64,000 nucleotides of DNA from Myxococcota bacterium (GTDB lineage Bacteria > Myxococcota > XYA12-FULL-58-9 > JALHOP01), in contig JALHOP010000002.1 of the NCBI GenBank assembly GCA_022842935.1, forward strand, positions 248,001 through 312,000. Direction: 5' to 3'. This document shows positions 1,887 to 21,462 of this stretch, piece after piece. The position numbers and the translations under genes were made by a program. Within the stretch, counting starts at the first letter, position 1. The number at the start of each line of letters is the position of its first letter. Under the pieces are notes generated by a model. It had not been told where the DNA came from. It ran no database searches and saw only the letters and a list, made by a program, of their open reading frames with translations.

Positions 1887-4800
1887 TTGCCGGATGCGAA
1901 TAGACGCTATATGGCGCTCGTCCCAACGAGTCTGGCCCGGAGCTCTCGCGTGGAATTTAGCGGCGAACGGTACATCCCGAAGGAGGGAGATGAGCACCTA
2001 GAGCTCGCCATCGAGCACCGCCTCCGCTACCTCGCAACGCAACCCTTGGTCGCTGGCAAACGGGTGCTCGACGCCGCGTGCGGAGAGGGCTACGGGTCCG
2101 CCTTGTTCGCCGAGGGTGCGGCCACGGTCCACGGAATCGACATCTCCGACGAGGCCATCGTCCACGCCAAGCGACACTACGCGCGCTCCAATCTCACGTT
2201 CACGAAGGCGTCGATCGAGAAGCTGCCGTTCCCGGACCATAGCTTCGACGTCGTTGTCTCATTCGAGACCATCGAGCATGTCGACGAGCGCATCCAGCGC
2301 GCCTTCCTCAGGGAAGTAAAGCGGGTGCTCGCGCCGAGCGGGACCTTCGTCATCTCGACCCCGGACAAAAGGGTCTACAGCGACGAGTCGAACCACAAGA
2401 ACACCTGGCATGTCCGCGAGTTCTACCGAGACGAATTCGACGCTTTCCTGCGCGAAGAGTTCGCCTTCGTGGATCTCTACGGTCAGCAGGCCTTGGTCGC
2501 AATGTCGCTCCGCCGACCGCAGGATGACCAGTTGCGCGTGCTCGAGACGGGGCGGAGCACGACTCGAGCGAAGTATCTGATCGCGGTCTGCAGCAACGCT
2601 GCTCCAGTTGACCAGTCGATCGCGGGGATCGCGCTCGACGGAAGCGGCGCCTACGAAGCAATGTGGAAGCGAATCATCGCGCTGCAAGACGAGGTCGAGA
2701 GCCGCAACCGCTGGGCGCAGCAGCTGCTCGACGAGCGGGCCGCGCTGAAAGCCAGCCCCCCGAGCCTCGAACGCGAATTCGATGCCATGCAACGAACCAT
2801 CGCGGGACGCGACGAAGAGCTTCGGCAGAAGTGGTCGGCTCTCCTGTCGACCCGCATCGAGCTCCAGGTGTTGCGGAGCGAACACGAGAAGCTGACAGAA
2901 CAACACCAGCAGCTCGTTCAAGCACACAGCGCTGCCGCGGCGGAGCTCGCGATGCATCGCGGTAGCGTAGCCGGCAAAGTGTACCTAAGGTATCGTTCTG
3001 TCCGCGATCGCGCACTTCCCATCAATTCGCCCCAACGTGAGATCCTCAAGAAAGGCTATCGCGGCGTCGCCGCAGGAGTGCGTTCTGTCCTCCGGCGCCG
3101 AGGAGCACCGGCTCCGGTGGTCCCCGCCCCGAAACCAGCGCAACCCGAACCCATCGAGCCCTTCAGCTTCCCCCACGTCGATGACCCGGTCGTCTCAATC
3201 ATCATCCCGGTCTTCAATCATTGGGCAACGACCTACACTTGTTTGCGCTCGCTTCACGCGACTCTTGGCGATCTTCCCGCCGAGATTATCCTCGCCGACG
3301 ACGGCTCCTCCGATGAAACGCGTCGCGCCGGCGAGATCGTCGCCGGGATGACGATCATCGCCGATGGAACGAATCGCGGCTTCCTCAGGAACTGCAACAA
3401 CGCAGCCGGCTTCGCGCGCGGTCGTTACATTTACTTCCTGAACAACGATACCGAGGTGAAGGCGCAAGCAGTTCAGGCGTTGGTCGAGCTACTCGATGCC
3501 GAGCCGCGCACCGGGCTCGTCGGCTCGAAGCTCATCTATCCCGATGGCCGTCTCCAAGAGGCGGGTGGGATCATCTGGAAAGACGCCTCTGGGTGGAACT
3601 TCGGTCGGCTTCAAGATCCGGACTCGGCCGAGTTCAACTATGTCCGCGACGTCGACTACATCTCCGGCGCCAGCATCATGGTTCGTGCTTCGCTCTGGCG
3701 TGAGATTGGCGGTTTCGACGAGCGCTACGCACCGGCCTATTGCGAAGACTCGGACTTCGCCTTCGAAGTACGCAAACGTGGCTACGGCGTCCGCTATCAG
3801 CCCCGCTCGGTGGTGGTGCACTACGAAGGCGTCAGCAATGGAACCGATACGAGCACGGGCATCAAGGCCTACCAGGTTCGTAACTCCAACTACCTACGCG
3901 AGAAGTGGCGGACCGTCCTTGAGCGCGACCACCTGCCGCCAGGCGAAGATGTCTTCGTGGCACGCGACCGCAGCCGCAACAAGCCATGTATCCTAGTCAT
4001 CGACCACTATGTGCCGCACTTTGACAAGGACGCCGGGAGCAGAACGGTCTGGGCGTTTCTGAGAGCGCTCATCGCGATGGGCTTTCAGGTGAAGTTCATT
4101 GGGGATAACTTCTTCCAGCACGAACCGTATACGAGCGCGCTGCAGCAGGCCGGCATCGAAGTGCTGCACGGCCCGAAATACAGCCAGGGGTGGGAGCAAT
4201 GGCTCGCCGACAACGGGCGATTCATCGATGTCGTGCTCCTCAACCGGCCGCACATTGGCCCCAAATATCTGGCAGCGATTCGCGCTACAACCAAAGCTAA
4301 AGTCCTCTATTACGGACACGACCTCGAGTATCTGCGGGAGGCAAAGCGAGCCGAAGTCGAAAACGATGACGAGCTCCGTCGTCACGCCGAGGCGCTGAAG
4401 CTGAACGAACAGCAGACCATGTCACGTATGGACGTTGTCCTCACCTGTAGCCACAGCGAAGCCGTAACTATCCGCGAGCTGTGCCCAGGGGTGCAGGTCG
4501 AGTGCGTTCCGCCCTATGCCCTCGACGTCGACCGCGCCGCGTTGTTCTCCAAGAAGGAGCGCAGTGGTCTCTTGTTCGTTGGCGGCTTCTCGCACAGGCC
4601 CAACGTCGACGCGGTGGTCAACTTCATGCGTGAAGCGTGGCCCGCAATCGAACGCGCGATTCCAGGAGTGGTCTTCACCATTGCGGGCTCTAACCCGTCG
4701 CCAGAAGTGCTGGCACTAGCGAGTGAGAACGTCCACGTCTTGGGTTTCGTATCGGACGCCAAGCTCCTTGAGCTCTACCGCACAGCCCGCCTAACCGTCG

Positions 4801-5105
4801 TGCCACTGCGCTATGGAGCCGGTGTCAAAGGCAAGACGGTTGAGGCCATGGCGTATGGAGTCCCTGTGGTGGGAACGCCTATCGCCTTCGAAGGCATGGA
4901 AGACATCGCATCGTACTTGCACCCGCTGCAGCAGGCGGAACCCATGCATCGGGCGGTTATCGAGCTCTATGACAACGACGTGGCGCTCAAGAGCATCTCA
5001 GCCCGCCAGCGCGAGTTCGTTCAGGGCCGGTTCTCTCTCGATGCCATTGCCGCCGCCTTCAGTCGCGCCATCGGTGGACCCCAACGTCAGGAAAGCAGCG
5101 CTTGA
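1887..5105 (+). CDS. Tri-domain methyltransferase-GT2-GT4 protein
   Basis: 1072 residues. The N-terminal part (about 20-240) is a class I SAM methyltransferase with RVLDAACGEGYGS as motif I and FDVVVSFETIEHV downstream. Residues of about 265-360 are charged and look coiled-coil. A GT2 domain occupies about 430-690 (VSIIIPVFNH, ADDGSSDET, FLNNDTEV, then YCEDSDFAFEVRKRGYG). A GT4-type domain occupies about 697-1060 (LLFVGGFSHRPNVDAV, then GAGVKGKTVEAMAYGVP). Such fusions probably add and methylate successive sugars of a chain terminus or repeat unit. The TTG at 1887 is the longest start; an ATG at 1911 is an alternative that would leave the upstream hairpin free. It overlaps hddA by four bases (TTGA). 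Confidence 0.85.
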   Translation: MPDANRRYMALVPTSLARSSRVEFSGERYIPKEGDEHLELAIEHRLRYLATQPLVAGKRVLDAACGEGYGSALFAEGAATVHGIDISDEAIVHAKRHYARSNLTFTKASIEKLPFPDHSFDVVVSFETIEHVDERIQRAFLREVKRVLAPSGTFVISTPDKRVYSDESNHKNTWHVREFYRDEFDAFLREEFAFVDLYGQQALVAMSLRRPQDDQLRVLETGRSTTRAKYLIAVCSNAAPVDQSIAGIALDGSGAYEAMWKRIIALQDEVESRNRWAQQLLDERAALKASPPSLEREFDAMQRTIAGRDEELRQKWSALLSTRIELQVLRSEHEKLTEQHQQLVQAHSAAAAELAMHRGSVAGKVYLRYRSVRDRALPINSPQREILKKGYRGVAAGVRSVLRRRGAPAPVVPAPKPAQPEPIEPFSFPHVDDPVVSIIIPVFNHWATTYTCLRSLHATLGDLPAEIILADDGSSDETRRAGEIVAGMTIIADGTNRGFLRNCNNAAGFARGRYIYFLNNDTEVKAQAVQALVELLDAEPRTGLVGSKLIYPDGRLQEAGGIIWKDASGWNFGRLQDPDSAEFNYVRDVDYISGASIMVRASLWREIGGFDERYAPAYCEDSDFAFEVRKRGYGVRYQPRSVVVHYEGVSNGTDTSTGIKAYQVRNSNYLREKWRTVLERDHLPPGEDVFVARDRSRNKPCILVIDHYVPHFDKDAGSRTVWAFLRALIAMGFQVKFIGDNFFQHEPYTSALQQAGIEVLHGPKYSQGWEQWLADNGRFIDVVLLNRPHIGPKYLAAIRATTKAKVLYYGHDLEYLREAKRAEVENDDELRRHAEALKLNEQQTMSRMDVVLTCSHSEAVTIRELCPGVQVECVPPYALDVDRAALFSKKERSGLLFVGGFSHRPNVDAVVNFMREAWPAIERAIPGVVFTIAGSNPSPEVLALASENVHVLGFVSDAKLLELYRTARLTVVPLRYGAGVKGKTVEAMAYGVPVVGTPIAFEGMEDIASYLHPLQQAEPMHRAVIELYDNDVALKSISARQREFVQGRFSLDAIAAAFSRAIGGPQRQESSA

Positions 5106-6160
5106 AGCCAGCATATTCGGTTCGCGCCAGAGCACCGCTTCGCCTCGGTTTGGCCGGGGGCGGCACCGATGTTTCCCCCTATTGCGATCTCCATGGCGGC
5201 GCCGTGCTGAACGCAACCATCGATCGCTACGCGCATTGTACGCTCGCGCCGCGCCACGACGGGATGGTGGTGTTCGAGGCGCCCGACATGGGTACGAGTG
5301 AAACGCTGCCGGCGACCGCGCGACTCGAGGCCGTCGGGCCATGCAAGCTGCAAAAGGCGGTTTACAACCGCATCACCGCTGACTATCTGGGCGGCGAACC
5401 CCTACCCCTCACGATCTCCACGACACTCGACGCGCCGCCCGGTTCTGGCTTGGGCTCCTCGTCGACGATGGTCGTTTGCCTTGTCACCGCGTTCACCGAG
5501 CTTCTGGCGTTGCCGCTTGGTGAGTACGATATCGCGCACTTGGCCTACGTGATCGAGCGTGTCGACATGGGCCTCACCGGTGGCAAGCAGGATCAATACG
5601 CCGCAGCGTTCGGCGGCGTGAACCTCATCGAGTTCTACGCCAACGACCGGGTCATCGTGAACCCGCTGCGCATCAAGGATTGGATTCTGCAGGAGCTCGA
5701 AGAGTCGCTCGTCACGTTCTACACTGGCGTCTCGCGCGAGAGCGCGCACATCATCGACGAGCAAATCCGCAATACGACTAGCAAGGCCACGGCGCCGGTA
5801 GAGGCCATGCATCAGCTCAAGGCCGACGCCGCGCGCATGAAAGAGGCGCTGCTCTTCGGCGATGTGCGCCGCTTCGCTGAGGTGCTCGACAGCTCTTGGC
5901 AAGCCAAGAAGCGCATGGCGAGCGCCATATCCAACCGGCACATCGACGCGATCGATGCAGCGGCGCGCGGCGCAGGGGCAGTCGCGGGCAAGGTCACGGG
6001 AGCCGGCGGCGGCGGCTACATGATGTTCGCCGTGCCACCGCGCCACCGCAGGCGCCTAGTCGACACCTTGGACACGATCGAAGGTGGTCGCGTGATGGAC
6101 TTTCACTTCGTGAAGGAAGGCGCGACCGCCTGGAGGACCAGCAATGGCTCACTCGAGTGA
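5102..6160 (+). CDS. hddA: D-glycero-alpha-D-manno-heptose-7-phosphate kinase
   Basis: A 352-residue GHMP kinase. The N-terminus RAPLRLGLAGGGTDVSPYCD is characteristic of HddA-type sugar kinases. The nucleotide loop APPGSGLGSSST is at about 110-121, and the C-terminal glycine-rich GKVTGAGGGGYMMF matches motif 3. It phosphorylates D-glycero-alpha-D-manno-heptose 7-phosphate at C1 on the route to GDP-D,D-heptose. The TTG start is supported by AGGAAAG at 5089-5095 and by a TTGA overlap with the upstream stop. Fucokinase-like relatives share the fold, but gmhA, hddC and gmhB next door make heptose the best call. Confidence 0.88.
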   Translation: MKPAYSVRARAPLRLGLAGGGTDVSPYCDLHGGAVLNATIDRYAHCTLAPRHDGMVVFEAPDMGTSETLPATARLEAVGPCKLQKAVYNRITADYLGGEPLPLTISTTLDAPPGSGLGSSSTMVVCLVTAFTELLALPLGEYDIAHLAYVIERVDMGLTGGKQDQYAAAFGGVNLIEFYANDRVIVNPLRIKDWILQELEESLVTFYTGVSRESAHIIDEQIRNTTSKATAPVEAMHQLKADAARMKEALLFGDVRRFAEVLDSSWQAKKRMASAISNRHIDAIDAAARGAGAVAGKVTGAGGGGYMMFAVPPRHRRRLVDTLDTIEGGRVMDFHFVKEGATAWRTSNGSLE

Positions 6161-6746
6161 TACTGGCGCAATCGTCGAGCAGATTCGTGAATCGATAGCC
6201 GTCAAGCAGCGGCTGCTCGAGGACCAGAGCTTGCTGGACGGTATCGCCAAAGCGGTGCACCTCTGCACGGAAGCCCTGCGCAACGATTGCAAGATCTTGG
6301 TCGCGGGCAACGGCGGCAGTGCGGCTGACGCGCAGCACTTCGCCGGCGAGCTGGTCAGCCGCTTCTACTTCGACCGCCCTGCCCTCCCTGGCATCGCGCT
6401 CACGACCGACACGAGCGTGCTCACCGCCATCGGCAACGACTACGGCTACGAGCAGGTCTTCTCGCGCCAGGTCGCGGGCCTCGGCCGCGCCGGTGACGTC
6501 TTCGTCGCGTTCTCGACGTCTGGCAACTCGCCTAACGTCCTGGCGGCGCTCCGCGAAGCACGCACGCGCAAGCTCCACACGATCGGTCTCTCCGGCCAGT
6601 CCGGCGGCAAGATGAAGGAGCTTTGCGACATCTGCTTGTGCATCCCGTCGAGTGAGACGCCGCGCATCCAAGAGTCGCACGAGCTCGTCAGTCACATCAT
6701 CTGCGCCCGCATCGAGGCGCTGATGTTCGGCGATCAGCGGAAGTGA
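6144..6746 (+). CDS. gmhA: Sedoheptulose-7-phosphate isomerase (phosphoheptose isomerase)
   Basis: A 200-residue SIS-domain protein. VAGNGGSAADAQHFAGEL (about 53-70) is the GmhA signature. Expected metal or catalytic positions are visible: His65, Glu69, Gln176 and His184, matching the spacing of E. coli His61, Glu65, Gln172 and His180. It converts sedoheptulose 7-phosphate to D-glycero-D-manno-heptose 7-phosphate, the substrate of the kinase encoded just upstream. The start overlaps hddA by 17 bases and the stop overlaps hddC by 4, so all three are probably made together. Confidence 0.92.
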   Translation: MAHSSDTGAIVEQIRESIAVKQRLLEDQSLLDGIAKAVHLCTEALRNDCKILVAGNGGSAADAQHFAGELVSRFYFDRPALPGIALTTDTSVLTAIGNDYGYEQVFSRQVAGLGRAGDVFVAFSTSGNSPNVLAALREARTRKLHTIGLSGQSGGKMKELCDICLCIPSSETPRIQESHELVSHIICARIEALMFGDQRK

Positions 6747-7447
6747 CGGAAGCCATCGTCTTATGCGGCGGCGCCGGCACGCGTCTCCGCAGCGTTAGCG
6801 GCGATACGCCCAAGAGCATGGTCGACGTCGCCGGTCGGCCTTTCCTGGAGATACTTCTAGAGTACTTGGGCGCCGGTGGCGTAACGCGCGTGGTTCTCGC
6901 CACGGGCGTCGGTCACGACGTTATCGCGGACTTCTTTGGCACGCGTTGGAGCTCGCTCGACATCGCTTACAGCCGAGAGCGCGAGCCACTCGGAACGGGC
7001 GGTGCGCTCGCACAGGCGATCCGCGAGACGAGCGCTCCCTCGGTGCTCGCCGTGAACGGCGACACGTACTTCGACGTGAGCCTCGCCGCTCTGTCGGCCC
7101 TGCACGAAGCAGAGCGGGCCGACGTCACCATGGCATTGAAGCCGCTCACCAACTTCGATCGCTACGGGACGGTTGTCCTCGATGGCGCGCGGGTCACCTC
7201 CTTCGTGGAGAAGCGCCCGACCCCCGAGGGGGTGATCAACGGCGGCATCTATTTGCTGCGACGTGACATCTTCACGAGCGACTTGCCGCGCGCATTTTCC
7301 TTCGAACGTGATTGGCTCGAGCGCCGGCTCGCGACCCAGCGAGTTTGCGGTCTCGTGCAAGACGGCTACTTCATCGACATCGGCATTCCGGAGGATTACC
7401 AACGTGCCTGCCGCGAGCTCCGAACGCGCGCTGTTCCTCGACCGTGA
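6743..7447 (+). CDS. hddC: D-glycero-alpha-D-manno-heptose 1-phosphate guanylyltransferase
   Basis: A 234-residue sugar nucleotidyltransferase. The N-terminal LCGGAGTRLRSVSGDTPKSM is the nucleotide-binding motif of the family, followed by VNGDTYFDVS (metal-binding Asp) and FVEKRP. It should activate D,D-heptose 1-phosphate with a nucleotide, GTP by homology to HddC, to give GDP-D-glycero-alpha-D-manno-heptose. The start is GTG in a GTGA overlap with gmhA. The last 44 bases also encode the start of gmhB in another frame. Nucleotide specificity cannot be proven from sequence; the operon context supports HddC. Confidence 0.85.
   Translation: MTEAIVLCGGAGTRLRSVSGDTPKSMVDVAGRPFLEILLEYLGAGGVTRVVLATGVGHDVIADFFGTRWSSLDIAYSREREPLGTGGALAQAIRETSAPSVLAVNGDTYFDVSLAALSALHEAERADVTMALKPLTNFDRYGTVVLDGARVTSFVEKRPTPEGVINGGIYLLRRDIFTSDLPRAFSFERDWLERRLATQRVCGLVQDGYFIDIGIPEDYQRACRELRTRAVPRP
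7390..7395 (+). promoter_or_regulatory. Ribosome-binding site fixing the gmhB start
   Basis: GGAGGA lies 8 bases before GTG 7404, inside the end of hddC. It supports GTG 7404 over the longer frame that is open back to 7263, whose extra residues are an out-of-frame reading of hddC. Confidence 0.7.
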
Positions 7448-7961
7448 CGGCGTCATCAACGTCGACCACGGATACGTGCACACGCCCGAGAAGTTCGAGC
7501 TGATCGACGGGATCGGCGAGGTGATGCAGCACTTCGCGCGGGCGGGGTATCTGCTGATCATCGTGACGAATCAGGCTGGGATTGCTCGGGGGTACTATAC
7601 CGAAGAGGAGTTCCTGCGGTTCGATGCGTGGATGCGCGGCGAGCTGAATCGGCTTTTAGCAGTGACGATCGCGCGGACCTACTACGCTCCGCACCACCCC
7701 GAGGGCGTGGTGGACCGTTTTCGCGGTGAGAGCGATCTGAGAAAGCCGAATCCAGGAATGCTCCTGGCCGCGGCTCGAGATTTCTCCCTGAACCTCGGAA
7801 GGTCCGTGCTTCTGGGTGACAAAGAGAGCGACGTCGTTGCCGGCAAGAAGGCAGGTGTCGGGTTGAACGTGCTCTACGCTGCATGCGGCGCACCTGCACA
7901 AACCATTGCCGATCGCGTAGTATTGAGCGTCTCGGAAATCATCGACGTTAGGCCCACATGA
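7404..7961 (+). CDS. gmhB: D,D-heptose 1,7-bisphosphate 7-phosphatase, zinc-cysteine-less variant
   Basis: A 185-residue HAD phosphatase, close to the E. coli length. LFLDRDGVINVDHGYVH carries the nucleophile and acid Asp pair, VTNQAGIARG is motif II, LRKPNPGM holds the Lys and LLGDKESDV the distal Asp residues. It removes the 7-phosphate of heptose bisphosphate before nucleotide activation. The zinc loop is altered: where E. coli has CPHHP and CDCRKP, this protein has APHHP and SDLRKP, so the three zinc cysteines are missing. The GTG start is set by GGAGGA at 7390. It overlaps hddC by 44 bases. Confidence 0.88.
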   Translation: MPAASSERALFLDRDGVINVDHGYVHTPEKFELIDGIGEVMQHFARAGYLLIIVTNQAGIARGYYTEEEFLRFDAWMRGELNRLLAVTIARTYYAPHHPEGVVDRFRGESDLRKPNPGMLLAAARDFSLNLGRSVLLGDKESDVVAGKKAGVGLNVLYAACGAPAQTIADRVVLSVSEIIDVRPT

Positions 7962-11400: not shown

Positions 11401-12408
11401 TCACTTCGTCGCCCAGAACACCACCTGCTCACGCCCGAGCAGGCCGTGCGCATACGACCAGGTGAGTAGCGCTCGCGCCGTGGTGAAGCCGGCCGCGCGC
11501 AAGTCGTCCATGAGCTTCCAGCCGAAGTACTGGTAGCAAAGTATCCCGCCCTCTGGGTTGACGGGATCGCCATGATAGTCAGGCGGGAGGAGATGTTCGA
11601 TCGTCCCGTCAGCAGCGACTCGCGCTCGGATCAGGTGGTCGCGCTGCTGCATCAAGAAGGGCACGGTCAGGATGAGATGCCCGCCGGGCCGCAGCACCCG
11701 CGCGAGCTCCACCATGGCTTCATCGAAGCCTGGAACGTGCTCGAGCACGTCGTTCGACACGACCATGTCGAGGCTCGCGTCCGCGAAAGAGAGCTTGGTT
11801 ACATCTTCGTGGCGAAGTCCCTTCACGACTTGCCCGGGAGCGATGTCCGCTCCAACGTACTCACTCCCGATGACGTTCGGACACCTCTTGGCCAGCAGGT
11901 TGAAGAACGGGGTGACCTGCTCGGTCGCGTAGATCGCGAGCTCGTTCAGGGGACGACCGTTCGCGACGTGCTCGATGGCGAGGAACGTTGCGCGCAAGCG
12001 GCAGTTCAGACCGCTTCGTGATGAAACGACGCGCTCACGATAGTTGGGGACCAGCACGCCGGGCGAGCTCTCGGTCGCACCGTACTGGAAGTCGATGAGG
12101 AACTCGGCGCGTTCGCGCACGCAGGCGTCGTAGCCTGGATACGAATAGGGCGCTTGGTTTGCCGACAGTGCGGCCTCGAGGAGAGCACGCCGTTCGTAGG
12201 TTCGCGCCATGCCCCGCTGGTAGCGCTCATAGTTTTCGAGACTCGCGACCTCATCGAAGGTTGGCAGTGGCGGAACGGGTAGCTCCCCGAGGCCTGCAAG
12301 GACCTGTTTAGCCAGCCCGCTGGCGACTTCGCTCTCGAGACTCACAGGCGGTGGCGAGAGCTTCGCCTGATCATCCGGAAGAATCCGCGAGAGCACTTGT
12401 CGGATCAT
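11401..12408 (-). CDS. SAM-dependent methyltransferase (type 11-like)
   Basis: 335 residues from the ATG complementary to 12406-12408. A longer frame reaches 12582 but would overlap the divergent gene and add a basic, low-quality tract. The C-terminal half is a class I methyltransferase fold: EYVGADIAPG, then LSFADASLDMVVSNDVLEHV and LARVLRPGGHLILTVPF. The N-terminal 120 residues are not recognised. It is the only minus-strand gene in this part of the locus and shares a 106-bp divergent control region with another methyltransferase. The likely target is a sugar residue of the polymer, but nothing in the sequence shows it. Confidence 0.82.
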   Translation of the reverse strand: MIRQVLSRILPDDQAKLSPPPVSLESEVASGLAKQVLAGLGELPVPPLPTFDEVASLENYERYQRGMARTYERRALLEAALSANQAPYSYPGYDACVRERAEFLIDFQYGATESSPGVLVPNYRERVVSSRSGLNCRLRATFLAIEHVANGRPLNELAIYATEQVTPFFNLLAKRCPNVIGSEYVGADIAPGQVVKGLRHEDVTKLSFADASLDMVVSNDVLEHVPGFDEAMVELARVLRPGGHLILTVPFLMQQRDHLIRARVAADGTIEHLLPPDYHGDPVNPEGGILCYQYFGWKLMDDLRAAGFTTARALLTWSYAHGLLGREQVVFWATK

Positions 12409-12475
12409 GGTGGTCAACCTGGCGCGAGCGCATAGCACACGGGTTTCGCGAGCGGCAACGCGAGAGCGCCTCGCC

Positions 12476-12503
12476 TTGACATACCGGACGCGGTTTGTTT
12501 CAT
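12476..12503 (+). promoter_or_regulatory. Candidate sigma-70-type promoter for the zinc-ribbon methyltransferase
   Basis: A perfect -35 TTGACA (12476-12481) is followed after 16 bases by TTTCAT (12498-12503, 4 of 6 match to TATAAT). The predicted transcription start is only a few bases before ATG 12515, and no ribosome-binding site is visible, so a leaderless or near-leaderless mRNA is possible. Prediction only. Confidence 0.35.
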
Positions 12504-12514
12504 GCGCCGCATCG

Positions 12515-13633
12515 ATGATGACGCTGGGCCGCGAGGTCGTGAAGAAGGGGTTGCGCAAGCTTGGTCTTCTCGAGCACGCCAAGGCTGTCCGCGATCTGAT
12601 TCGGCGAACGCCGGCCCGGCTGCCGCAGCCAGTGATTGTACCGAGTGTGACGCCCGAGCCATTGGTGGTTCCGGATGCGACGCTCGAGTCAGTGGTGGTC
12701 CCGGATGCGACGCTCGAGTCAGTGGTGGTCCCGGATGCGACGCTCGACCCTTCATTTCTCGCGGGTCCTCAAGCCCCGTGCCCAGTGTGCAGCGCCCAAA
12801 GCACTCACTTCAGGACAGTCGACGGCTTCGATTTCTTCAGCTGCAGCGGCTGCGGCGTCATTCATCTCGACCCCGAGGTGCTTGCTGAAATCGATCAAGG
12901 GCGCCCGATCGTCGACTATCAAAACGACTACTGGGAGATGGAGACGCAAGCAGCGCTCGAACGCGCTCGCGGCATGGCCATCGCTCGCCTGGCGGAAGCT
13001 ATCTATCTCGCCCGCCGACCCGTGGAGCTCGCGATCGACATCGGCACGGGAACCGGCGCGATCCTCGACGAGATCATCAAGATCCTGCCAAACATGGGCG
13101 AAAGGGTCTACGGCGTCGAGAAATTCCCACCTCAAAAACACACCGCGTCCAAGAACTACGTTGTTGGCGACCTGAAGAGCGTCGGGCCCCTCAAGTTCGA
13201 CGCCGGACTTTGCATGGAGGTGGTCGAACACCTCACGCCAATGATGTTGCGCGAGCTGCTGTCTGACCTTGCCGAGCGCTCGAACCCGGATGCGTGTTAC
13301 GTGTTCAACACCGGTCTGGCCAGGTTCGCTCGCGATGAGGACCCGGGCTACGTCGATCCGTTGCGTCGCGGCCACATCATGTTCTGGACCATCGAGGCTG
13401 TGAATACCCTTGCCGCGCCCTACGGCCTGACAGCCTCGGCGATGCCAGGGCGTAACTGGTCGTTTCTTCTGGAGAAGCGGGTGGGTGCAGCCACGCCGGT
13501 CGCGGATCGGCTCTACACCCCGTTGCCAGAAAACAAACTCTTCCTGGCCGACGGCAACGGAGGCTGGGGTTTGGCCGGCATCACGGCCTTCGAGGCGCTA
13601 CGCGCCTACTATTTCTCCACTCGCCCAGCCTAG
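12515..13633 (+). CDS. Methyltransferase with N-terminal zinc ribbon and a tandem peptide repeat
   Basis: 372 residues from ATG 12515 (ATG 12518 is also possible). The frame is open back to 12407, but those codons cross the divergent promoter region. The basic N-terminus GLRKLGLLEHAKAVRDLIRR is common in sugar-locus methyltransferases. Residues 50-79 are three tandem decapeptides of the VVVPDATLES type. A zinc ribbon follows (CPVC, later CSGC), then a class I methyltransferase domain with AIDIGTGTGAILDEI and FDAGLCMEVVEHL. This arrangement is that of the type 11/12 methyltransferases found in polysaccharide loci. The substrate is unknown. Confidence 0.82.
   Translation: MMTLGREVVKKGLRKLGLLEHAKAVRDLIRRTPARLPQPVIVPSVTPEPLVVPDATLESVVVPDATLESVVVPDATLDPSFLAGPQAPCPVCSAQSTHFRTVDGFDFFSCSGCGVIHLDPEVLAEIDQGRPIVDYQNDYWEMETQAALERARGMAIARLAEAIYLARRPVELAIDIGTGTGAILDEIIKILPNMGERVYGVEKFPPQKHTASKNYVVGDLKSVGPLKFDAGLCMEVVEHLTPMMLRELLSDLAERSNPDACYVFNTGLARFARDEDPGYVDPLRRGHIMFWTIEAVNTLAAPYGLTASAMPGRNWSFLLEKRVGAATPVADRLYTPLPENKLFLADGNGGWGLAGITAFEALRAYYFSTRPA
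12662..12751 (+). repeat. Three tandem 30-bp repeats inside the zinc-ribbon methyltransferase gene
   Basis: Copies at 12662-12691, 12692-12721 and 12722-12751 encode VVVPDATLES-type decapeptides in frame. Copies 2 and 3 are near identical; copy 1 differs at its first codons. The array lies in the linker between the basic N-terminus and the zinc ribbon and probably expands or contracts by slippage without a frameshift. Confidence 0.85.
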
Positions 13634-13658: not shown

Positions 13659-13692
13659 GATCAGCGCGCTTTTGCATAGAAGCCGCGTCCAG

Positions 13693-15027
13693 ATGCGCAT
13701 CAACGTCATTGGCACCGGATACGTAGGCTTGGTCGCCGGCACCTGTCTCGCCGAGGTCGGCAACGACGTCGTTTGCCATGACATCGACGCCGGCAAGGTC
13801 GAGCGACTGCGCCGCGGCGAGATCCCGATCTACGAGCCCGGCTTGGGCGAGCTCGTGGCGCGCAACCTCAAGGACAAACGCCTCGCGTTCACGACGAATT
13901 TGGCGGAGGCGGTGAACGGCGCCGCGGTCTGCTTCATCGCCGTTGGGACTCCGGGCGACCAGGACGGCGCCGCCGATCGGCGTTACGTCCTCGAAGCCGT
14001 CATCGCGGTCGCTCGCGTGATGACCGGACCGCTGACCATCGTCATGAAGTCGACCGTGCCAGTCGGCACCTGCCAGATGATGCGGGACGTGGTGGCCGAG
14101 ACGCTGCGAGAGCGTAAGGTCAACTTCGACTTCGACGTAGTCTCGAATCCCGAGTTCTTGAAGGAAGGCAAAGCGGTCGACGACTTCATGCGCCCCGACC
14201 GCATCGTCGTTGGCGCCGACCGCGCGTCCAGCCGGGAGCTCATGACCGAGATCTACTCGACCTTCGTGCGCAACGGACACCCGCTGGTGTTCATGGATGT
14301 CCGCTCGGCGGAGATGACCAAGTATGCCGCCAACGTCATGCTTGCGACGCGAATCTCGCTCATGAATGAGCTTGCGCAGATCTGCGACAAGGTCGGCGCC
14401 GACATTATGCAGGTACGCCAAGGCATCGGTACCGACGCCCGCATCGGCATGGACTTCTTGTATCCGGGCATCGGCTATGGCGGATCGTGTTTCCCCAAAG
14501 ACGTTCGCGCCCTCTCGCGGCTCGCGGTCGAAGCCGACCTGCCGGGCAACATCCTCGACGCCGTCGATCGCGTGAACCGTCACCAGAAGGTGCTGCTTGC
14601 GAATCGCATCATTCAGCGTTTCGACGGTGATGTGCGCAAGCGCAGCTTTGCGCTCTGGGGCTTGGCGTTCAAGTCGAACACCGACGACATCCGTGAGGCA
14701 TCGGCCCTGGTGGTGCTCCGCCGCCTAACCGACGCGGGCGCGACGGTCGTTTGCTACGACCCCGAAGCCATGGCCAACGCCAAGCGCGAGCTCGGCGACC
14801 ATCCGCGCGTGCGCTTCGCTCCTGGAGCTTACGAAGCAGTCGAGGGCTGCGATGCCTTGGTGCTCGCGACCGAGTGGAGCCAGTTTCGTCGGCCCGACTT
14901 CGACCGACTCAAGGGCCTCATGAAGGCTCCACTCATCTTCGACGGCCGCAATCAATATGAGCCCGCCGCGATGCAGAAGCTGGGCTTCGAATACCACTGT
15001 ATCGGCAGACCCCGAGGACTTTCATGA
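13693..15027 (+). CDS. ugd: UDP-glucose 6-dehydrogenase
   Basis: 444 residues from ATG 13693 (MRINVIGTGYVGLVAGTCLA). The frame is open to a TTG at 13672, but the dinucleotide fold begins right after the chosen Met. The N-terminal Rossmann motif is GTGYVG. The catalytic cysteine lies in GIGYGGSCFPKDVRAL, and the C-terminal domain has LWGLAFKSNTDDIREA. It oxidises UDP-glucose twice with NAD+ to UDP-glucuronate. With the 4-epimerase at 26434 it should supply UDP-GlcA and UDP-GalA for the polymer. The stop overlaps the next start (ATGA). Confidence 0.95.
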   Translation: MRINVIGTGYVGLVAGTCLAEVGNDVVCHDIDAGKVERLRRGEIPIYEPGLGELVARNLKDKRLAFTTNLAEAVNGAAVCFIAVGTPGDQDGAADRRYVLEAVIAVARVMTGPLTIVMKSTVPVGTCQMMRDVVAETLRERKVNFDFDVVSNPEFLKEGKAVDDFMRPDRIVVGADRASSRELMTEIYSTFVRNGHPLVFMDVRSAEMTKYAANVMLATRISLMNELAQICDKVGADIMQVRQGIGTDARIGMDFLYPGIGYGGSCFPKDVRALSRLAVEADLPGNILDAVDRVNRHQKVLLANRIIQRFDGDVRKRSFALWGLAFKSNTDDIREASALVVLRRLTDAGATVVCYDPEAMANAKRELGDHPRVRFAPGAYEAVEGCDALVLATEWSQFRRPDFDRLKGLMKAPLIFDGRNQYEPAAMQKLGFEYHCIGRPRGLS

Positions 15028-17228
15028 CGCCGCAGCTCGATCTTTCCGTCGTCGTTCCCTGCTTCAACGAAGAGTTCAACATCGCGGAGCTCACCGAGCG
15101 CATCCTCGGGGTGCTCGACACCGGCGAGCTGACCGGCGAGCTCATCCTCGTCGATGACGGCTCGAAAGATGGAACGGCAGACGTCATCCGCCAGCAGATG
15201 GAGAAGCACCCAGCCAAGGTCGTCGGGCAGTTCCACGACGGCAACAAAGGCATCACCGAGGCCTGGCGCACCGGCACCATGGCTGCTCGCGGCGCTGTCG
15301 TCTGTGTGATCGACGCCGACCTCCAGTATCGCCCTGAAGACATCCTCCGCCTCCATCGCACCTTCCGCGACAGCAGCGTCGACGTCGTCCAGGGCTGGCG
15401 CAGCCCAGCCGGTCGCGCCCGTGATCAGCGCTACTGGCTGTCGCGCGGCTTCAACAAGCTGCTCAACAACGCGTTCGGCATGCAGCTGCGCGACAACAAG
15501 AGCGGCTTCGTGCTCTGCGCGAAGGAGACCTTCCTCGACATCCTGAGCTACCGCGGCACCTACGCCTACTGGCAGTCCTTCATCATGGTCGCGGCTCACG
15601 CCAAGGGCTATTCCTACCGCGAAGTCGAGACGCTCTTCGAAGCGCGCAAGCAAGGCGTCTCGTTCCTCGAGAACACCGCAGCGTACAAGGCAGCGGCGCG
15701 CAGCTTCGTCGACCTGGGTAAGGCTGTCTGGGAGTACCGCGTCAACCAGGAGCCGAACGACATCGCGCGGCAGTACCTGCGCCGCAACAACGTCGAGATC
15801 ACTGATCCGCCATCACGCGCCGCGCGACCCGCACGCTTCCGCGCGTACATGAATACGTTTTCGCAGACGCACTGGATGATCACGAAGAACGTCGAACACT
15901 ACTACGAGACGCTCAACGCGACCCAGTGGCTCTCGCCCGCGCAGATGCGCGAGCTGCAAGACGAGAAGCTCCGCCGCCTCATTCGTCATGCCTACCGGAG
16001 CGTGCCGTACTACCGCGCAAAGATGCAGGAAGCGAAGTTGCACCCCGAAGACATTCGTGGCCAAGCAGACCTTCACCGACTGCCTTTCCTGACCAAGAGC
16101 GACGTCCGTCAGCACCTGCACTTCGACATGATGCAAGAGGGCACGTCCTACGGCGACGTCCTCAAGATCTCCACCTCGGGCAGCACTGGCGAGCCGTTCG
16201 TGTGCTACGCCGATCGCTCGCAGCTCGAGTTCCGCTGGGCGGCCACCCTCCGCTCGCAGGAGTGGACGGGCTATCGCTTCGGCGACCCGACGGTGCGCCT
16301 CTGGCACCAGACCCTCGGCATGAGCAAGTCGCAGGCGTTCAAAGAGCACGCCGACGCGTGGTTTGCCGACCGTACCTTCATCCCGATCTTCGAGATGACC
16401 GACGCGAAGCTCGAGGAGATGGCGCAGCTCCTCGAGGCCAAGGCCCCCGTCCTCATCGATGGGTACGCTGAAGCGTTCGACTTCTTGGCCCACTTCCTCA
16501 AGAGCCGCGGCGGCCTGAAGGTGAGCCCCAAGGCGCTGATGTCGAGCGCACAGACCCTGCCGCGCAAGAGCCGCGAGCTCATCGAGAGCACGTTCGGCTG
16601 CAAGGTCTTCGACAAGTACGGCAGCCGCGAGTTCTCCGGCATCGCGTACGAGAGCGAAGCGCACAACGGCCACCTCGTCGTCGCCGAGGGCTACATCGTC
16701 GAGCTGCTCGTCGACGGGCGCCCCGCGAAGCCCGGCGAGGTTGGCGAAGTCGTCGTGACCGACCTCAACAACTTCTGCATGCCCTTCATTCGCTATCGCA
16801 TCGGCGATCTCGCCGCAGCGACCGACGACGCGCCGTCGAGCTGTGGTCGCGGCCTGCCGCGCATCGGCGACATCCAGGGTCGCGTGCAGTCGATCATCCA
16901 GGGCACCGAGGGCCACTTCGTGCCAGGCACCTTCTTCGCGCACGCTCTCAAAGAGTACGACTACGCCATCAAGCGTTTCCAGGTCGTGCAAGACCAGCCG
17001 GGCGCCATCAACTTCCGCATGGTCAAGGGCAGCCGCTACTCGGACGAGACGCTCGAGGAAGTCAAAGCGCTCATCCGTGAGTACCTGGGGGACAAGCTCG
17101 TCATCAACGTCGACTTCGTCGATCAGATCGAGATGGTCCGCACCGGTAAACACCTCGCGAGCATCTCGAAGCTGCCAATCGACTTTCAGAAGAAGGCCCC
17201 GGCGCTCGCGGCGCAGAAGGCAGGCTAG
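15024..17228 (+). CDS. GT2 - CapK/PaaK-like adenylate-forming fusion protein
   Basis: 734 residues in a single uninterrupted frame. Residues 1 to about 260 are a GT2 domain (VVVPCFNEEFNI, LVDDGSKDGT, VIDADLQYRPEDI). Residues of about 275-734 match the phenylacetate-CoA ligase/CapK family of adenylate-forming enzymes. That part begins with the WLSPAQMRELQDEKLRRLIR and AYRSVPYYRAKM start typical of CapK. It has the ATP loop KISTSGSTGEPF at about 380-391, then DKYGSREFSGIAYE and MPFIRYRIGDLA. CapK relatives occur in capsule loci and probably activate or transfer an acyl group. This fusion may couple sugar transfer to acyl decoration; that is inference. Confidence 0.88.
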   Translation: MTPQLDLSVVVPCFNEEFNIAELTERILGVLDTGELTGELILVDDGSKDGTADVIRQQMEKHPAKVVGQFHDGNKGITEAWRTGTMAARGAVVCVIDADLQYRPEDILRLHRTFRDSSVDVVQGWRSPAGRARDQRYWLSRGFNKLLNNAFGMQLRDNKSGFVLCAKETFLDILSYRGTYAYWQSFIMVAAHAKGYSYREVETLFEARKQGVSFLENTAAYKAAARSFVDLGKAVWEYRVNQEPNDIARQYLRRNNVEITDPPSRAARPARFRAYMNTFSQTHWMITKNVEHYYETLNATQWLSPAQMRELQDEKLRRLIRHAYRSVPYYRAKMQEAKLHPEDIRGQADLHRLPFLTKSDVRQHLHFDMMQEGTSYGDVLKISTSGSTGEPFVCYADRSQLEFRWAATLRSQEWTGYRFGDPTVRLWHQTLGMSKSQAFKEHADAWFADRTFIPIFEMTDAKLEEMAQLLEAKAPVLIDGYAEAFDFLAHFLKSRGGLKVSPKALMSSAQTLPRKSRELIESTFGCKVFDKYGSREFSGIAYESEAHNGHLVVAEGYIVELLVDGRPAKPGEVGEVVVTDLNNFCMPFIRYRIGDLAAATDDAPSSCGRGLPRIGDIQGRVQSIIQGTEGHFVPGTFFAHALKEYDYAIKRFQVVQDQPGAINFRMVKGSRYSDETLEEVKALIREYLGDKLVINVDFVDQIEMVRTGKHLASISKLPIDFQKKAPALAAQKAG

Positions 17229-17233
17229 GCTCG

Positions 17234-18196
17234 GTGCGCCGGCGCATCGTCGTTACGGGCTCGCAGGGCTTCGTCGGCAAGCACCTGCGGCGCGCGCTCC
17301 TGGCGCGCGACTGCGAGGTCATCGGGATCGATAGGCCGGGCACCGGCGCGGAGATCGAGCAGGACCTCTCGGCCGCTTTCTCGGCGACCGAGCTGGCGCG
17401 TCGAGTCGGCCCGGTCGACGGCATTATCTATATGGCCGCGACCATCACGCGTGGCTCGAGCGTCGATCATATCGCTCGCGCGAACCTCCAGGCCATCGCG
17501 GTAGCGCCTGTCGAAATGCGCGAGGCCTGGCACACACTGCACGGCTCGACCCACTTCGTCTATTGCTCGACGTACAAGACCTACGGGCCCCCGGAGTCGC
17601 TCCCGATCGATCCCCAGCGGCCTCCGCAGCGCCCCGACCCGCACTCTTACGGCTCGGCGAAGATCCTCGCCGAGCGCCTGTTGCAGATCTCGGTGGAGCG
17701 CGTTGGCGGCACCTGGGCGGTGGTTCGCCCCACGTGCATCTACGGAGCCGGCCAGCACCTGCACAACGCCATTCCGCTGTTCGCTAAAGCGTGCTGGGCA
17801 GGTCAGGCCCCCGTGGTCTTCGGGACCGGCCGCGACCTGCGTGACGATGTCTTCGCTCCGGACCTTGCTTACTGCCTCGCCGAAGCGTGCTTGCGCAAAG
17901 CCACCGGGGCCTTCCACGCCTCCGGTGACAAAGCACACACCATCCTCGAGGTTGCCGAGCTCTGCTGCCGAGCCGTCGCCGAGCTCGGCGGGCCGTCGGG
18001 CCTTGCGCCTCTCGTTGACCCGAGCAAACCGCCCAAGTGGTGGATTGACCAGGCCTTCGACTGGAAGCGTAGTCACGAGGTTCTTGGCTACACGCCGACA
18101 CCGTTGCTCGACGGCATCAAGTGCGAGGCCGCATGGATCAAGGCCGGCGCGGTCGCGGCGGCGTCGATCGAATTCTGTCCGCCACCGAAGACGTGA
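17234..18196 (+). CDS. NAD-dependent sugar-nucleotide epimerase/dehydratase (SDR)
   Basis: 320 residues with a GTG start five bases after the upstream stop. It is an extended short-chain dehydrogenase: VTGSQGFVG for NAD(P) binding, YCSTYKTYGPP around the catalytic Ser/Thr, YGSAK as the active-site YxxxK, then VRPTCIYGAGQ. It probably interconverts or dehydrates a nucleotide sugar of the polymer. Neighbouring SDR, esterase and ugd genes place it in the same pathway. Sequence alone does not set the substrate. Confidence 0.85.
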   Translation: MRRRIVVTGSQGFVGKHLRRALLARDCEVIGIDRPGTGAEIEQDLSAAFSATELARRVGPVDGIIYMAATITRGSSVDHIARANLQAIAVAPVEMREAWHTLHGSTHFVYCSTYKTYGPPESLPIDPQRPPQRPDPHSYGSAKILAERLLQISVERVGGTWAVVRPTCIYGAGQHLHNAIPLFAKACWAGQAPVVFGTGRDLRDDVFAPDLAYCLAEACLRKATGAFHASGDKAHTILEVAELCCRAVAELGGPSGLAPLVDPSKPPKWWIDQAFDWKRSHEVLGYTPTPLLDGIKCEAAWIKAGAVAAASIEFCPPPKT

Positions 18197-18209: not shown

Positions 18210-19151
18210 ATGAAAATCGTCATCACAGGCGCAACAGGCCACCTCGGTCGCTACACCACGTTCACGCTCGCGCAGGCAGGTCACGAGGTCGTCGCACTGT
18301 CGCGCTCGGGCACGATGCCGAAGGCGCCGTTCGGCTTCGTGGAAGGCGCGGGCCGCATACGCCCGGGCAAGCTCGACATCGACAGCGACGCTTGTATCGC
18401 GACCCTCGAGGCTGAGCTAGGACCAGACGTCGCGCTCGTTCACCTCGCGGCGTGGCACCCGCCAGCGACCGCAGCGACCAGCGCGGCGGACCGCCTGCGC
18501 CTCATCGAAACCAACGTCTATGGCACCATGCGCGTGCTCGAGGCAGCGCGAAAGCAGCGCGGTGGTGTCGCGCGGGTGATCTACGCCTCGACCTTCGAGG
18601 TGTACGGCGCCCTGGAGAGCGACGGTCCGATCAGCGAGGCGACGCGGACGACGCCGCTCACGGACTACGGCGCGACGAAGCTCAGTGGCGAGGACCATCT
18701 CATCTCCTTCGGTGCGGAGGAGAACGTGCTCGTGGTGGCGCTGCGCTTGCCCGCGATCTACGGGCCGGGCGAGCACACGCCACGCGCCTTGCCGAACTTC
18801 TTGAAGCAGGTAGCGAGCGGAACCCGGCCAGTCATCCAGGGTGACGGCAGTGATCTGCGCGATGAAGTGCATGCGCGCGATGCGGCGCGCGCCATCCTGT
18901 GCGCGCTCACGAGCCGAGAGGGCGGTATATTCAATATATCGGATGGCCAGAGCCATACGATCCGCGAGCTCGCGTCCACCGCTCTCGAAGTGTCGGGCAT
19001 GCCGGGTCAACCGACCTTTGCGCCCGCCGCCAAACCCAAGCGCGACTATCACATGGTCATCGACCGCGCGCGCACGGTGCTCGGCTATGAGCCCAGCGTG
19101 ACGCTGCGCGACGGCATGCGCGAGCAGTACCAAGCAGACTACGGTCGCTGA
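18210..19151 (+). CDS. NAD-dependent epimerase/dehydratase (SDR), second copy
   Basis: 313 residues. ATG 18210 is preceded by GAGGAA (18198-18203) at a good distance, and the NAD motif follows at once (VITGATGHLG). This rejects the longer frame back to 17703, which is an out-of-frame reading of the previous gene. The catalytic region reads YASTFEVYGA, and the YxxxK motif is YGATK. It is a paralogue-type neighbour of the SDR upstream, and the two may act in sequence on one nucleotide sugar. Its stop overlaps the next start by one base (TGATG). Confidence 0.87.
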   Translation: MKIVITGATGHLGRYTTFTLAQAGHEVVALSRSGTMPKAPFGFVEGAGRIRPGKLDIDSDACIATLEAELGPDVALVHLAAWHPPATAATSAADRLRLIETNVYGTMRVLEAARKQRGGVARVIYASTFEVYGALESDGPISEATRTTPLTDYGATKLSGEDHLISFGAEENVLVVALRLPAIYGPGEHTPRALPNFLKQVASGTRPVIQGDGSDLRDEVHARDAARAILCALTSREGGIFNISDGQSHTIRELASTALEVSGMPGQPTFAPAAKPKRDYHMVIDRARTVLGYEPSVTLRDGMREQYQADYGR

Positions 19152-20185
19152 TGGACTGGCTCTCTCCGTCGGCGTGCCACGCGCCGCTCCTGGACCAGCC
19201 GCCCCGACTCGCCTTTCGGCCCGGCACCGATCTGGGCGCGTGGCAGAGACGCTTGCGACGGCGTCTGCATCACCTGTTGGGGCTCGGTTTGATGCCGGCG
19301 GAGCCTGGCGATCTCGCGGTGCGCACGGTTTGGGAGCGAGAGCACCCATCGGGTCTCGGCACCATCACCAAGATCGTCTTCCTCGCGGAGCCGGGGGCGG
19401 AGGTTCCCGCCTACGTCTGTCTTCCAAAGAACGCGCAGCCCCCCTTCGCATTCATGATCTGTCTGCAGGGTCACTCTACGGGGATGCACAACTCGATTGC
19501 TTACAGCGAAGACGAAGAGCACCCCATCGCCGTGGAAGGCGACAGAGACTTCGCGCTCGGTTGTCTGCGTCAAGGAATCGCTGCCTTCGCCATCGAGCAG
19601 CGCTCGCTCGGCAGTCGCCGCGAGAAGCAACAAGCGCGTAAGAGCTACCATAACGACTGCCACGACGCGGCTGCGCGGGCTCTCATGCTCGGGCGAACGC
19701 TCGCAGGTGAGCGGGTCTACGATGTTGGGCGCGCGCTCGAGTACTTGGCGACGCGATCCGATGTGATGCCGAACCGCATCGGCATCATGGGGACCTCGGG
19801 CGGCGGGATCACCGCGATGTACGCCATAGCGATGTTCGAGCGCCTCGCTTTTGCGATGCTATCGGCCTCGTTCTGCACGTTCCGCGACTCGGTGATGACG
19901 ATTCATCACTGCATCGACAACTATGTGCCCGGCCTTTATCGGTTCGCTGATATGGCGGACATCGTTGGCGTCGCGGCGCCGCGTCCTGTGCTGATCGTGG
20001 GCGCGGAGCACGATCAGATCTTTCCCAAACACGGGCTCGAGAGAGCGTTCGCGCAACTCCAGACGATCTACGATGCCGCAGGCGCCGGTGATCGCGTTGG
20101 CTTGGTCGTTGGCCCCGAGGGCCACCGTTTCTACGCGGAGCTTGCTTGGCATGCAGCGCGCTCCCTATGGCCGCCGACGCCATAG
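19151..20185 (+). CDS. Alpha/beta hydrolase (acetyl-xylan-esterase/dienelactone-hydrolase type)
   Basis: 344 residues. The nucleophile elbow is GTSGGG (Ser at about 217). The acid is probably the Asp of VGAEHDQIFP, and the base His lies in VGPEGHRFYAE, giving a complete Ser-Asp-His set. No signal peptide is seen, so it should act in the cytoplasm. It is translationally coupled to the upstream epimerase (TGATG). De-acylation of a sugar precursor is a reasonable guess. Peptidase or other esterase roles are not excluded. Confidence 0.75.
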   Translation: MDWLSPSACHAPLLDQPPRLAFRPGTDLGAWQRRLRRRLHHLLGLGLMPAEPGDLAVRTVWEREHPSGLGTITKIVFLAEPGAEVPAYVCLPKNAQPPFAFMICLQGHSTGMHNSIAYSEDEEHPIAVEGDRDFALGCLRQGIAAFAIEQRSLGSRREKQQARKSYHNDCHDAAARALMLGRTLAGERVYDVGRALEYLATRSDVMPNRIGIMGTSGGGITAMYAIAMFERLAFAMLSASFCTFRDSVMTIHHCIDNYVPGLYRFADMADIVGVAAPRPVLIVGAEHDQIFPKHGLERAFAQLQTIYDAAGAGDRVGLVVGPEGHRFYAELAWHAARSLWPPTP

Positions 20186-20433: not shown

Positions 20434-21462
20434 ATGCGCCAGCACGCGGTGAAGCTGGTCCTATCGCTAATTATTGCGGCTGCCTTCGTCTGGGTGCTGG
20501 AGCGCGGCGGCCTGCCCATTCTGCCGGCGCGGGAATCACTTTCGCGCGTGGCGTGGTGGACCATTCCGGCAGCGCTACTCACGCAAATCGTATCGAGTTA
20601 CTGGCGCACGTACCGTTGGTACTACTTGCTACGTCCCATCGATCCGACCGCCAATCCGAAGCGCATCCTCGGCATCGGCCTCGTCGGCTTCACCGCGATT
20701 CTGTTCGCGCCCCTGCGGCTCGGTGAGGTCGCGCGGCCCTATCTCATCTCCCTCGACCGGAGAGTCTCGTTCTCCCAAGCTCTTGGTACCGTAGGCGCCG
20801 AGCGCGTCATCGATGGATTGATTGTCACGGCGGCTTTGCTCGCCGCAATGCTCTACACCACCCAACTCTCGCCCTTGCCCGACCATCTCGGTGATCTTCC
20901 ACTCCCCATCGCGGTGATCCCAGCGGCCGCCTACAGCGCCTTGGCGATCTTCAGCTGCGCGTTCATCGCTATGGGCGTCTTCTACTGGGCGCGCGAGCCC
21001 GCTCGCAGGCTCACGCACGCGGTCGTTGGACTGGTCTCACACCGCGCCGCGGAGTTCCTCGCAAAGCGTGTCGAGCGCTTGGCCGATGGGCTCCGTTTCT
21101 TGCCGGCGCTTCGTAACTCGGGTCCGTTCCTGCGCGACACAGTCCTCTACTGGACCGTCATTGCAATGGGCCAATGGGCGGTGCTCAACGGCTGCGGCGT
21201 ACAGGCCTCGCTCTCCGAGACCTGGGTCACCGTCGGCGTCATGGGCCTGGGGACTCTCATCCCCGCTGGTCCGGGCTTCTTCGGGGCCTTTCAGCTCTCG
21301 GCGTACTGCGGACTTGCGATGTTCTTCCCCGCGAGCGTCGTACTCGAGGCCGGAGCAGCGTTCGTCTTCATCACGTACGTCACCCAGCTCGCGGTCAGTG
21401 TCCTGGCATGCGGCGTCGGCGTCTTGCTCATGGCGCGGACCACGCGCGGAAGCACCTCGTGA
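20434..21462 (+). CDS. Lysylphosphatidylglycerol-synthase-like integral membrane protein
   Basis: 342 residues with about eight hydrophobic segments. FAPLRLGEVARPYLIS and GAERVIDGLIVTAALL are hallmarks of the LPG synthase transmembrane-region family (PF03706). The late segment GTLIPAGPGFFGAFQLSAY also fits. The family includes flippase-like proteins and AglD-type transferases in glycan loci, so lipid-sugar handling at the membrane is the likely role. ATG 20434 is chosen though no ribosome-binding site is visible. The frame is open upstream to about 20302 without a standard start codon. Confidence 0.8.
   Translation: MRQHAVKLVLSLIIAAAFVWVLERGGLPILPARESLSRVAWWTIPAALLTQIVSSYWRTYRWYYLLRPIDPTANPKRILGIGLVGFTAILFAPLRLGEVARPYLISLDRRVSFSQALGTVGAERVIDGLIVTAALLAAMLYTTQLSPLPDHLGDLPLPIAVIPAAAYSALAIFSCAFIAMGVFYWAREPARRLTHAVVGLVSHRAAEFLAKRVERLADGLRFLPALRNSGPFLRDTVLYWTVIAMGQWAVLNGCGVQASLSETWVTVGVMGLGTLIPAGPGFFGAFQLSAYCGLAMFFPASVVLEAGAAFVFITYVTQLAVSVLACGVGVLLMARTTRGSTS

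Follow-up and report, generated by a model that had tools for sequence, protein, structure and literature searches.

A GT2 glycosyltransferase domain, probably of the polyprenyl-phosphate type, fused to a CapK-like adenylate-forming domain in a Myxococcota polysaccharide locus

A single open reading frame of 734 residues, located in a 64,000-nucleotide stretch of a Myxococcota contig (the window), joins a GT2 glycosyltransferase domain to a PaaK/CapK-like adenylate-forming domain. The reading we prefer, with a probability of about 0.4, is that the protein is a polyprenyl-phosphate sugar synthase whose CapK half serves to acylate or amidate the sugar before export. The earlier note had proposed that sugar transfer and acid activation occur on one polypeptide, and this is well supported at the sequence level by the presence of both domains, their conserved covalent union and the intact core ATP/adenylate motifs of the CapK half. 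Its further idea of a sugar-acylation machine is kept here at the strength of an inference. The same note treated the GT2 half as a generic sugar transferase; this part was not upheld, as profile ranking and lipid-phosphate-binding residues favour a polyprenyl-phosphate sugar synthase instead. The features of the fusion are as follows.

15024..17228, + strand: GT2-CapK fusion, 734 aa, stop-free translation
15036..15713, + strand: GT2 domain, DPMS/GtrB/ArnC-like (residues 5-230)
15678..15731, + strand: amphipathic helix at an IFH2-like position, start of the linker (residues 219-236)
15714..15890, + strand: interdomain linker, alpha-helical, without a transmembrane segment (residues 231-289)
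15891..17198, + strand: PaaK/CapK-like adenylate-forming domain (residues 290-725)

The uninterrupted frame was confirmed, and each motif originally quoted for it (DDGSKDGT, DADLQYRPED, STSGSTGEP, DKYGSREF and RYRIGDL) is present in the translation. Every 60-codon window of the ORF has a third-position GC of 0.75-0.98, and the signal continues unbroken across the junction at 15,800-15,850, with no sign of the frameshift that the earlier note had named among the observations that would overturn the fusion. Pfam comparison identified Glycos_transf_2 at residues 8-161 (E 4e-24), while the AMP-binding match in the CapK half is marginal (E 0.016), so that the second half of the protein escapes annotation by Pfam only. 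Comparisons with NCBIfam and the PDB placed residues 297-700 among PaaK-type ligases (E 1e-24 to 1e-38). Of two AF2 models of the fusion (pTM 0.38 and 0.64), the latter was of moderate quality (pLDDT 71), too low to judge whether the two active sites face each other.

The same domain order was sought elsewhere, as had been suggested, and seven other records, including a closed plasmid, span the junction; the fusion thus withstood the earlier note's check for its absence from other genomes. A scan of approximately 85,000 species genomes, whose sensitivity is limited to close relatives, gave seven relevant loci (L009-L015) in myxobacterial or deltaproteobacterial MAGs. Fusions are full-length in L009 (73% identity to the window copy), L010 (66%), L011 (65%) and L013 (66%); those of L012 and L014 span the junction with one end of each lost at a contig edge, and L015 retains the last 212 residues only, the contig end cutting off the rest. 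A tblastn search of 72,556 plasmids added another complete copy, carried by pROLI127, a closed plasmid from the marine Roseobacter litoralis B14 (L037:18001-20217, ROLI_RS22565; 46% identity, residues 1-721), bringing the copies besides that of the window to five full-length (four MAG, one plasmid) and three cut by contig ends. The nine fusion sequences, when aligned, show a single common domain order and boundary with conserved linker length, indicating that the fusion is not a chance artefact. An assembly chimera or frameshift artefact, conceivable in that the window is draft sequence in 46 contigs, is ruled out by the seven other junction-spanning records and the unbroken codon signature.

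The fusion is rare, being present in one of 195 genomes of the window's phylum (the window genome itself) and in none of the 194 others. That one copy is plasmid-borne suggests mobility between lineages. Viral contigs yielded no fusion and a few distant single-domain relatives, and no fusion was found in the phage records searched. A CapK ORF of 906 aa in another genome (L036) was considered as a second fusion type and rejected, as its N-terminal half possesses no Pfam domain. The closest stand-alone CapK proteins (Methanosarcina, Deinococcus) have approximately 30% identity with the CapK half, whereas full-length fusions share at least approximately 45%, so the fusions form a distinct family.

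The CapK half carries the following motifs.

Residues 384-391: A3, TSGSTGEP
Residues 530-537: A5, DKYGSREF
Residues 590-596: A7, RYRIGDL
Residues 619-625: A8-like, GRVQSII
Residues 706-709: RTGK, with the C-terminal lysine

TSGSTGEP, DKYGSREF, RYRIGDL, GR and the RTGK lysine are conserved in all fusions that cover them, bar single substitutions (S or G at residue 534; E, R or A at residue 390), and distant stand-alone CapK proteins share the core of each motif without change. A profile of the CapK half matched PaaK-type ligases with an E value of 5e-39, and Foldseek analysis of an AF2 model of moderate confidence returned a PaaK1/PaaK2 fold match (PaaK1, E 7e-26; target TM 0.62-0.65). On these motifs and matches, the CapK half very probably adenylates an acid. 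The NCBIfam PaaK equivalog model scored 104 bits, its cut-off of 646 not being reached, and the CapK half is thus not a PaaK sensu stricto. Where PaaK has its A8 hinge aspartate, the fusion has glutamine (GRVQS versus GRSDD). Because of this change a CoA thioester should not be assumed, and PaaK is no guide to whether the second half-reaction yields a thioester, an ester or an amide.

A profile built from seven of the GT2 halves was run against the PDB. ArnC, GtrB (sll0501) and archaeal DPMS lead the matches (E 6e-21 to 1e-18), the next-ranked group being chondroitin synthase (E 5e-13) and chain-building GT2s reaching 5e-13 or worse. In the DPMS of P. furiosus (PfDPMS), Asp91 and Gln93 hold the metal and donor, Asp89 touches the sugar, Arg117, Arg131 and Ser135 bind dolichyl phosphate, and Arg202 with Glu12 shuts the acceptor loop (PMC5526996). 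HMMER alignment pairs E16, D97, D99, Q101, R126 and S140 of the fusion with Glu12, Asp89, Asp91, Gln93, Arg117 and Ser135 of PfDPMS, respectively. R136 was matched to Arg131 through identical RxxxS spacing, and R208 to Arg202 by the motif FxxRxxGxS, not by the printed alignment. All of these fusion residues are invariant across the family, and the DADLQ motif is kept, with A or S at residue 98. Two observations count against a polyprenyl-phosphate enzyme: Lys208 of the PfDPMS A-loop is replaced by F214, and a search of the whole fusion found no hydrophobic or transmembrane segment. The linker and CapK domain occupy the place of the membrane anchor of DPMS-type enzymes. As the transmembrane domain of PfDPMS is reported to be expendable, with the interface helices required (PMC5526996), a CapK domain in the anchor position is compatible with activity and the absence of an anchor is not decisive. 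The helix at residues 219-236, which corresponds in position to the second interface helix, is amphipathic (shuffle fraction <0.04 in seven of eight sequences). The GT2 half is therefore predicted to be a polyprenyl-phosphate sugar synthase, with a lipid phosphate as its probable acceptor.

This evidence also bears on the possibility that an ordinary Leloir GT2 elongates a glycan bound to its lipid carrier and that the CapK half acylates the added residue, with no polyprenyl-phosphate sugar being formed. Such an arrangement would suit the lack of a membrane anchor, the broad similarity of the GT2 half to chain-extending glycosyltransferases as well, and the setting, a capsule-type locus that also encodes an ABC exporter and numerous glycosyltransferases. 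It is nevertheless rather unlikely, given that polyprenyl-phosphate glycosyltransferases ranked first in the profile search by approximately 5 to 8 orders of magnitude and that the three lipid-phosphate residues are invariant.

The genes adjoining the fusion in the window, with gaps that are short or replaced by overlaps as far as the hydrolase, lie in the order dehydrogenase, fusion, SDR1, SDR2, hydrolase, PF03706.

13672..15027, + strand: UDP-glucose/GDP-mannose-type nucleotide-sugar 6-dehydrogenase, directly upstream of the fusion
17234..18196, + strand: SDR1, NAD-dependent epimerase/dehydratase (syntenic orthologues, 61% in L009 and 56% in L010)
18210..19151, + strand: SDR2, epimerase/dehydratase (best PDB match MoeE5, UDP-GlcA 4-epimerase-like, approximately 30%; syntenic in L009 and L010)
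19151..20185, + strand: alpha/beta hydrolase, Abhydrolase_7, with weaker AXE1 and GCE esterase matches (60% orthologue in L009)
20434..21462, + strand: LPG_synthase_TM (PF03706) flippase-like membrane protein

SDR1 and SDR2 immediately follow the fusion in three genomes (window, L009 and L010; 53-61% identity). The hydrolase orthologue of L009 flanks the fusion on the opposite strand. A PF03706 protein is encoded in four loci: in the window, after SDR2 with a 4-bp overlap in L010, close to the fusion in L014 and as its neighbour on the R. litoralis plasmid; its role as a flippase partner is a family-level guess. A membrane-protein family without a Pfam match adjoins the fusion on its upstream side in L011 and L013 and lies in its vicinity in L010 and L012; its many transmembrane segments and early DxPxH motif suggest a GT-C-like protein, again as a family-level guess. 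These conserved neighbours (the SDR pair, PF03706 and the putative GT-C-like proteins) fit a three-component lipid-sugar route. Two results count against the preferred model: the candidate GT-C genes of the window gave no match to the upstream membrane-protein family, and the surroundings of the fusion yielded no acyltransferase, acid-synthesis gene or carrier protein.

Amidation of the sugar's own carboxylate was regarded as the main rival in this analysis. Here the GT2 half would place a uronic acid (GlcA or GalA) and the CapK half would activate its C6 carboxylate for amide formation with an amine. A nucleotide-sugar dehydrogenase directly upstream of the fusion, with which it shares a 4-bp overlap (ATGA, 15024-15027), and another located 7 kb from the fusion on the R. 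litoralis plasmid speak for this reading, as do the nearest PDB matches of SDR2, which are UDP-GlcA 4-epimerases. There are also precedents in AepG, a DPMS-like GT2 making Dol-P-GlcA (PMC9943897), and in Campylobacter Cj1438, a GT2 with a C-terminal domain, different from the CapK ligase, for ATP-dependent GlcA amidation (PMC11800397). However, both the overlap and the directly adjoining position of the dehydrogenase are restricted to the window genome, and scanning of flanks in L009-L014 revealed no dehydrogenase gene close to the fusion. As a candidate uronate epimerase SDR2 was rejected, since RLPAIYGPG replaces the RxFTVYGP common to both GlcA epimerases. No amine-supplying gene was identified either, and we consider this explanation unlikely.

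More improbable still is that the halves act independently, with the CapK domain supplying some other enzyme with soluble acyl-CoA or acyl-adenylate and the fusion merely fixing stoichiometry. Stand-alone, unfused CapK proteins do adjoin glycosyltransferase and SDR genes in three loci (L038, L039 and L057), and the conserved alpha/beta hydrolase could process an acyl group. The retention of both fusion and linker length down to 46% identity between two phyla, however, suggests that the halves are coupled.

In the preferred model, the polyprenyl-phosphate sugar synthase with a CapK domain would be a bifunctional protein, soluble or membrane-peripheral. Its GT2 half would move a sugar from a nucleotide sugar onto polyprenyl (undecaprenyl) phosphate, as ArnC, GtrB and DPMS do, and its CapK half would adenylate a carboxylic acid with ATP. 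The acyl group might then be passed, directly or via CoA, to the adjacent newly made sugar through an ester or amide bond, so that an acylated polyprenyl-phosphate sugar results; that the same sugar receives it is conceivable at close to even odds. The SDR pair would tailor the sugar. Export of the acylated lipid-sugar, with the LPG_synthase_TM protein as candidate, and subsequent transfer of the sugar by a GT-C enzyme onto a glycan outside the cytoplasm are proposed more tentatively. A bolder and rather doubtful version is that an adenylating ligase has taken the place of the anchor and acylates the sugar while it is on lipid phosphate, so providing pre-acylated lipid-linked sugars for extracytoplasmic decoration.

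CapK-like ligases adjoin many polysaccharide genes, and a search of open-access papers found none that says what they activate there. A conserved covalent tie to a lipid-phosphate sugar synthase narrows this question, as the acid should land on the sugar made by this GT2. The anchor-replacement version, if true, would give the CapK domain a defined role in a polysaccharide locus. A single recombinant protein and a host that grows in culture (R. litoralis B14) bring the problem within experimental reach, and the recurrence of the fusion in myxobacteria and on a Roseobacter plasmid suggests a two-step machine for acid-decorated cell-surface sugars.

In common with the polyprenyl-phosphate GT2s ArnC, GtrB/sll0501, archaeal DPMS and AepG, the fusion possesses DADLQ, counterparts of Arg117, Arg131, Ser135 and the A-loop Arg202, and IFH1/IFH2-like helices. 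Unlike these, the fusion, known here from its sequence, has a CapK ligase in place of a C-terminal transmembrane anchor and Phe in place of Lys208. With PaaK/CapK enzymes (the 'phenylacetate--CoA ligase family') it shares the full set of A3, A5, A7, A8-like and C-terminal lysine motifs and a predicted PaaK1/PaaK2 fold; it differs in being joined to a GT2, in its identity of only approximately 30% to the stand-alone CapK proteins compared, in the Asp to Gln change at the hinge and in its score of 104 against 646 bits. Campylobacter jejuni Cj1438 likewise combines a GT2 with an ATP-using carboxylate ligase in a single capsule protein; unlike the fusion, it has an extra middle domain and a ligase acting on GlcA already in the polymer, and that ligase domain is not reported to be related to PaaK (PMC11800397). 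As Cj1438 already pairs a GT2 with an ATP-dependent ligase on one chain, the fusion varies a known theme and is built of known domains. Three-component systems comprise a cytoplasmic synthase for an undecaprenyl-phosphate sugar, a flippase for its export and a GT-C that attaches the sugar to a glycan, and some, such as Citrobacter GT136, also possess auxiliary epimerases (PMC11127046). The fusion loci resemble these systems (Gtr; Citrobacter GT136) in their synthase, flippase candidate, GT-C candidate and epimerase-like SDRs. They differ in a flippase candidate that belongs to PF03706 rather than to SMR or MATE and in a synthase bearing an acid-activating domain, and it is this adenylating domain on the synthase that is the new element.

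The glycan locus of the GT2-CapK fusion encodes a further multi-domain polypeptide, in which methyltransferase, GT2 and GT1 domains lie together in one frame. An ABC-2 type exporter is located upstream of four consecutive genes, expected to form a set for nucleotide-activated heptose, and a DUF7657 membrane protein closes the locus.

Features of the glycan locus (window positions)
339-1869, ABC-2 type exporter
1887-5105, + strand, methyltransferase/GT2/GT1 protein (1072 aa)
5102-7961, + strand, GHMP kinase, SIS isomerase, nucleotidyltransferase, HAD hydrolase
28951-31083, - strand, DUF7657 membrane protein (E 2e-53)

A methyltransferase-like gene (12407-13633) was also identified to possess an in-frame tandem repeat (12649-12747; 3.3 copies of a 30 bp unit) encoding PDATLESVVV repeats.

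Near the fusion in four genomes, a family of multi-pass membrane proteins was identified. Pfam comparison of these members showed no match, and they possibly represent an undescribed GT-C family.

Multi-pass membrane family members
L010:5555-9055
L011:1027-2520
L012:3463-5037
L013:8168-9928

A Methanohalobium plasmid (L057:3881-7284) carries two GT2 genes with a stand-alone CapK gene directly after them: these are the same kinds of domain as in the fusion, but unfused.
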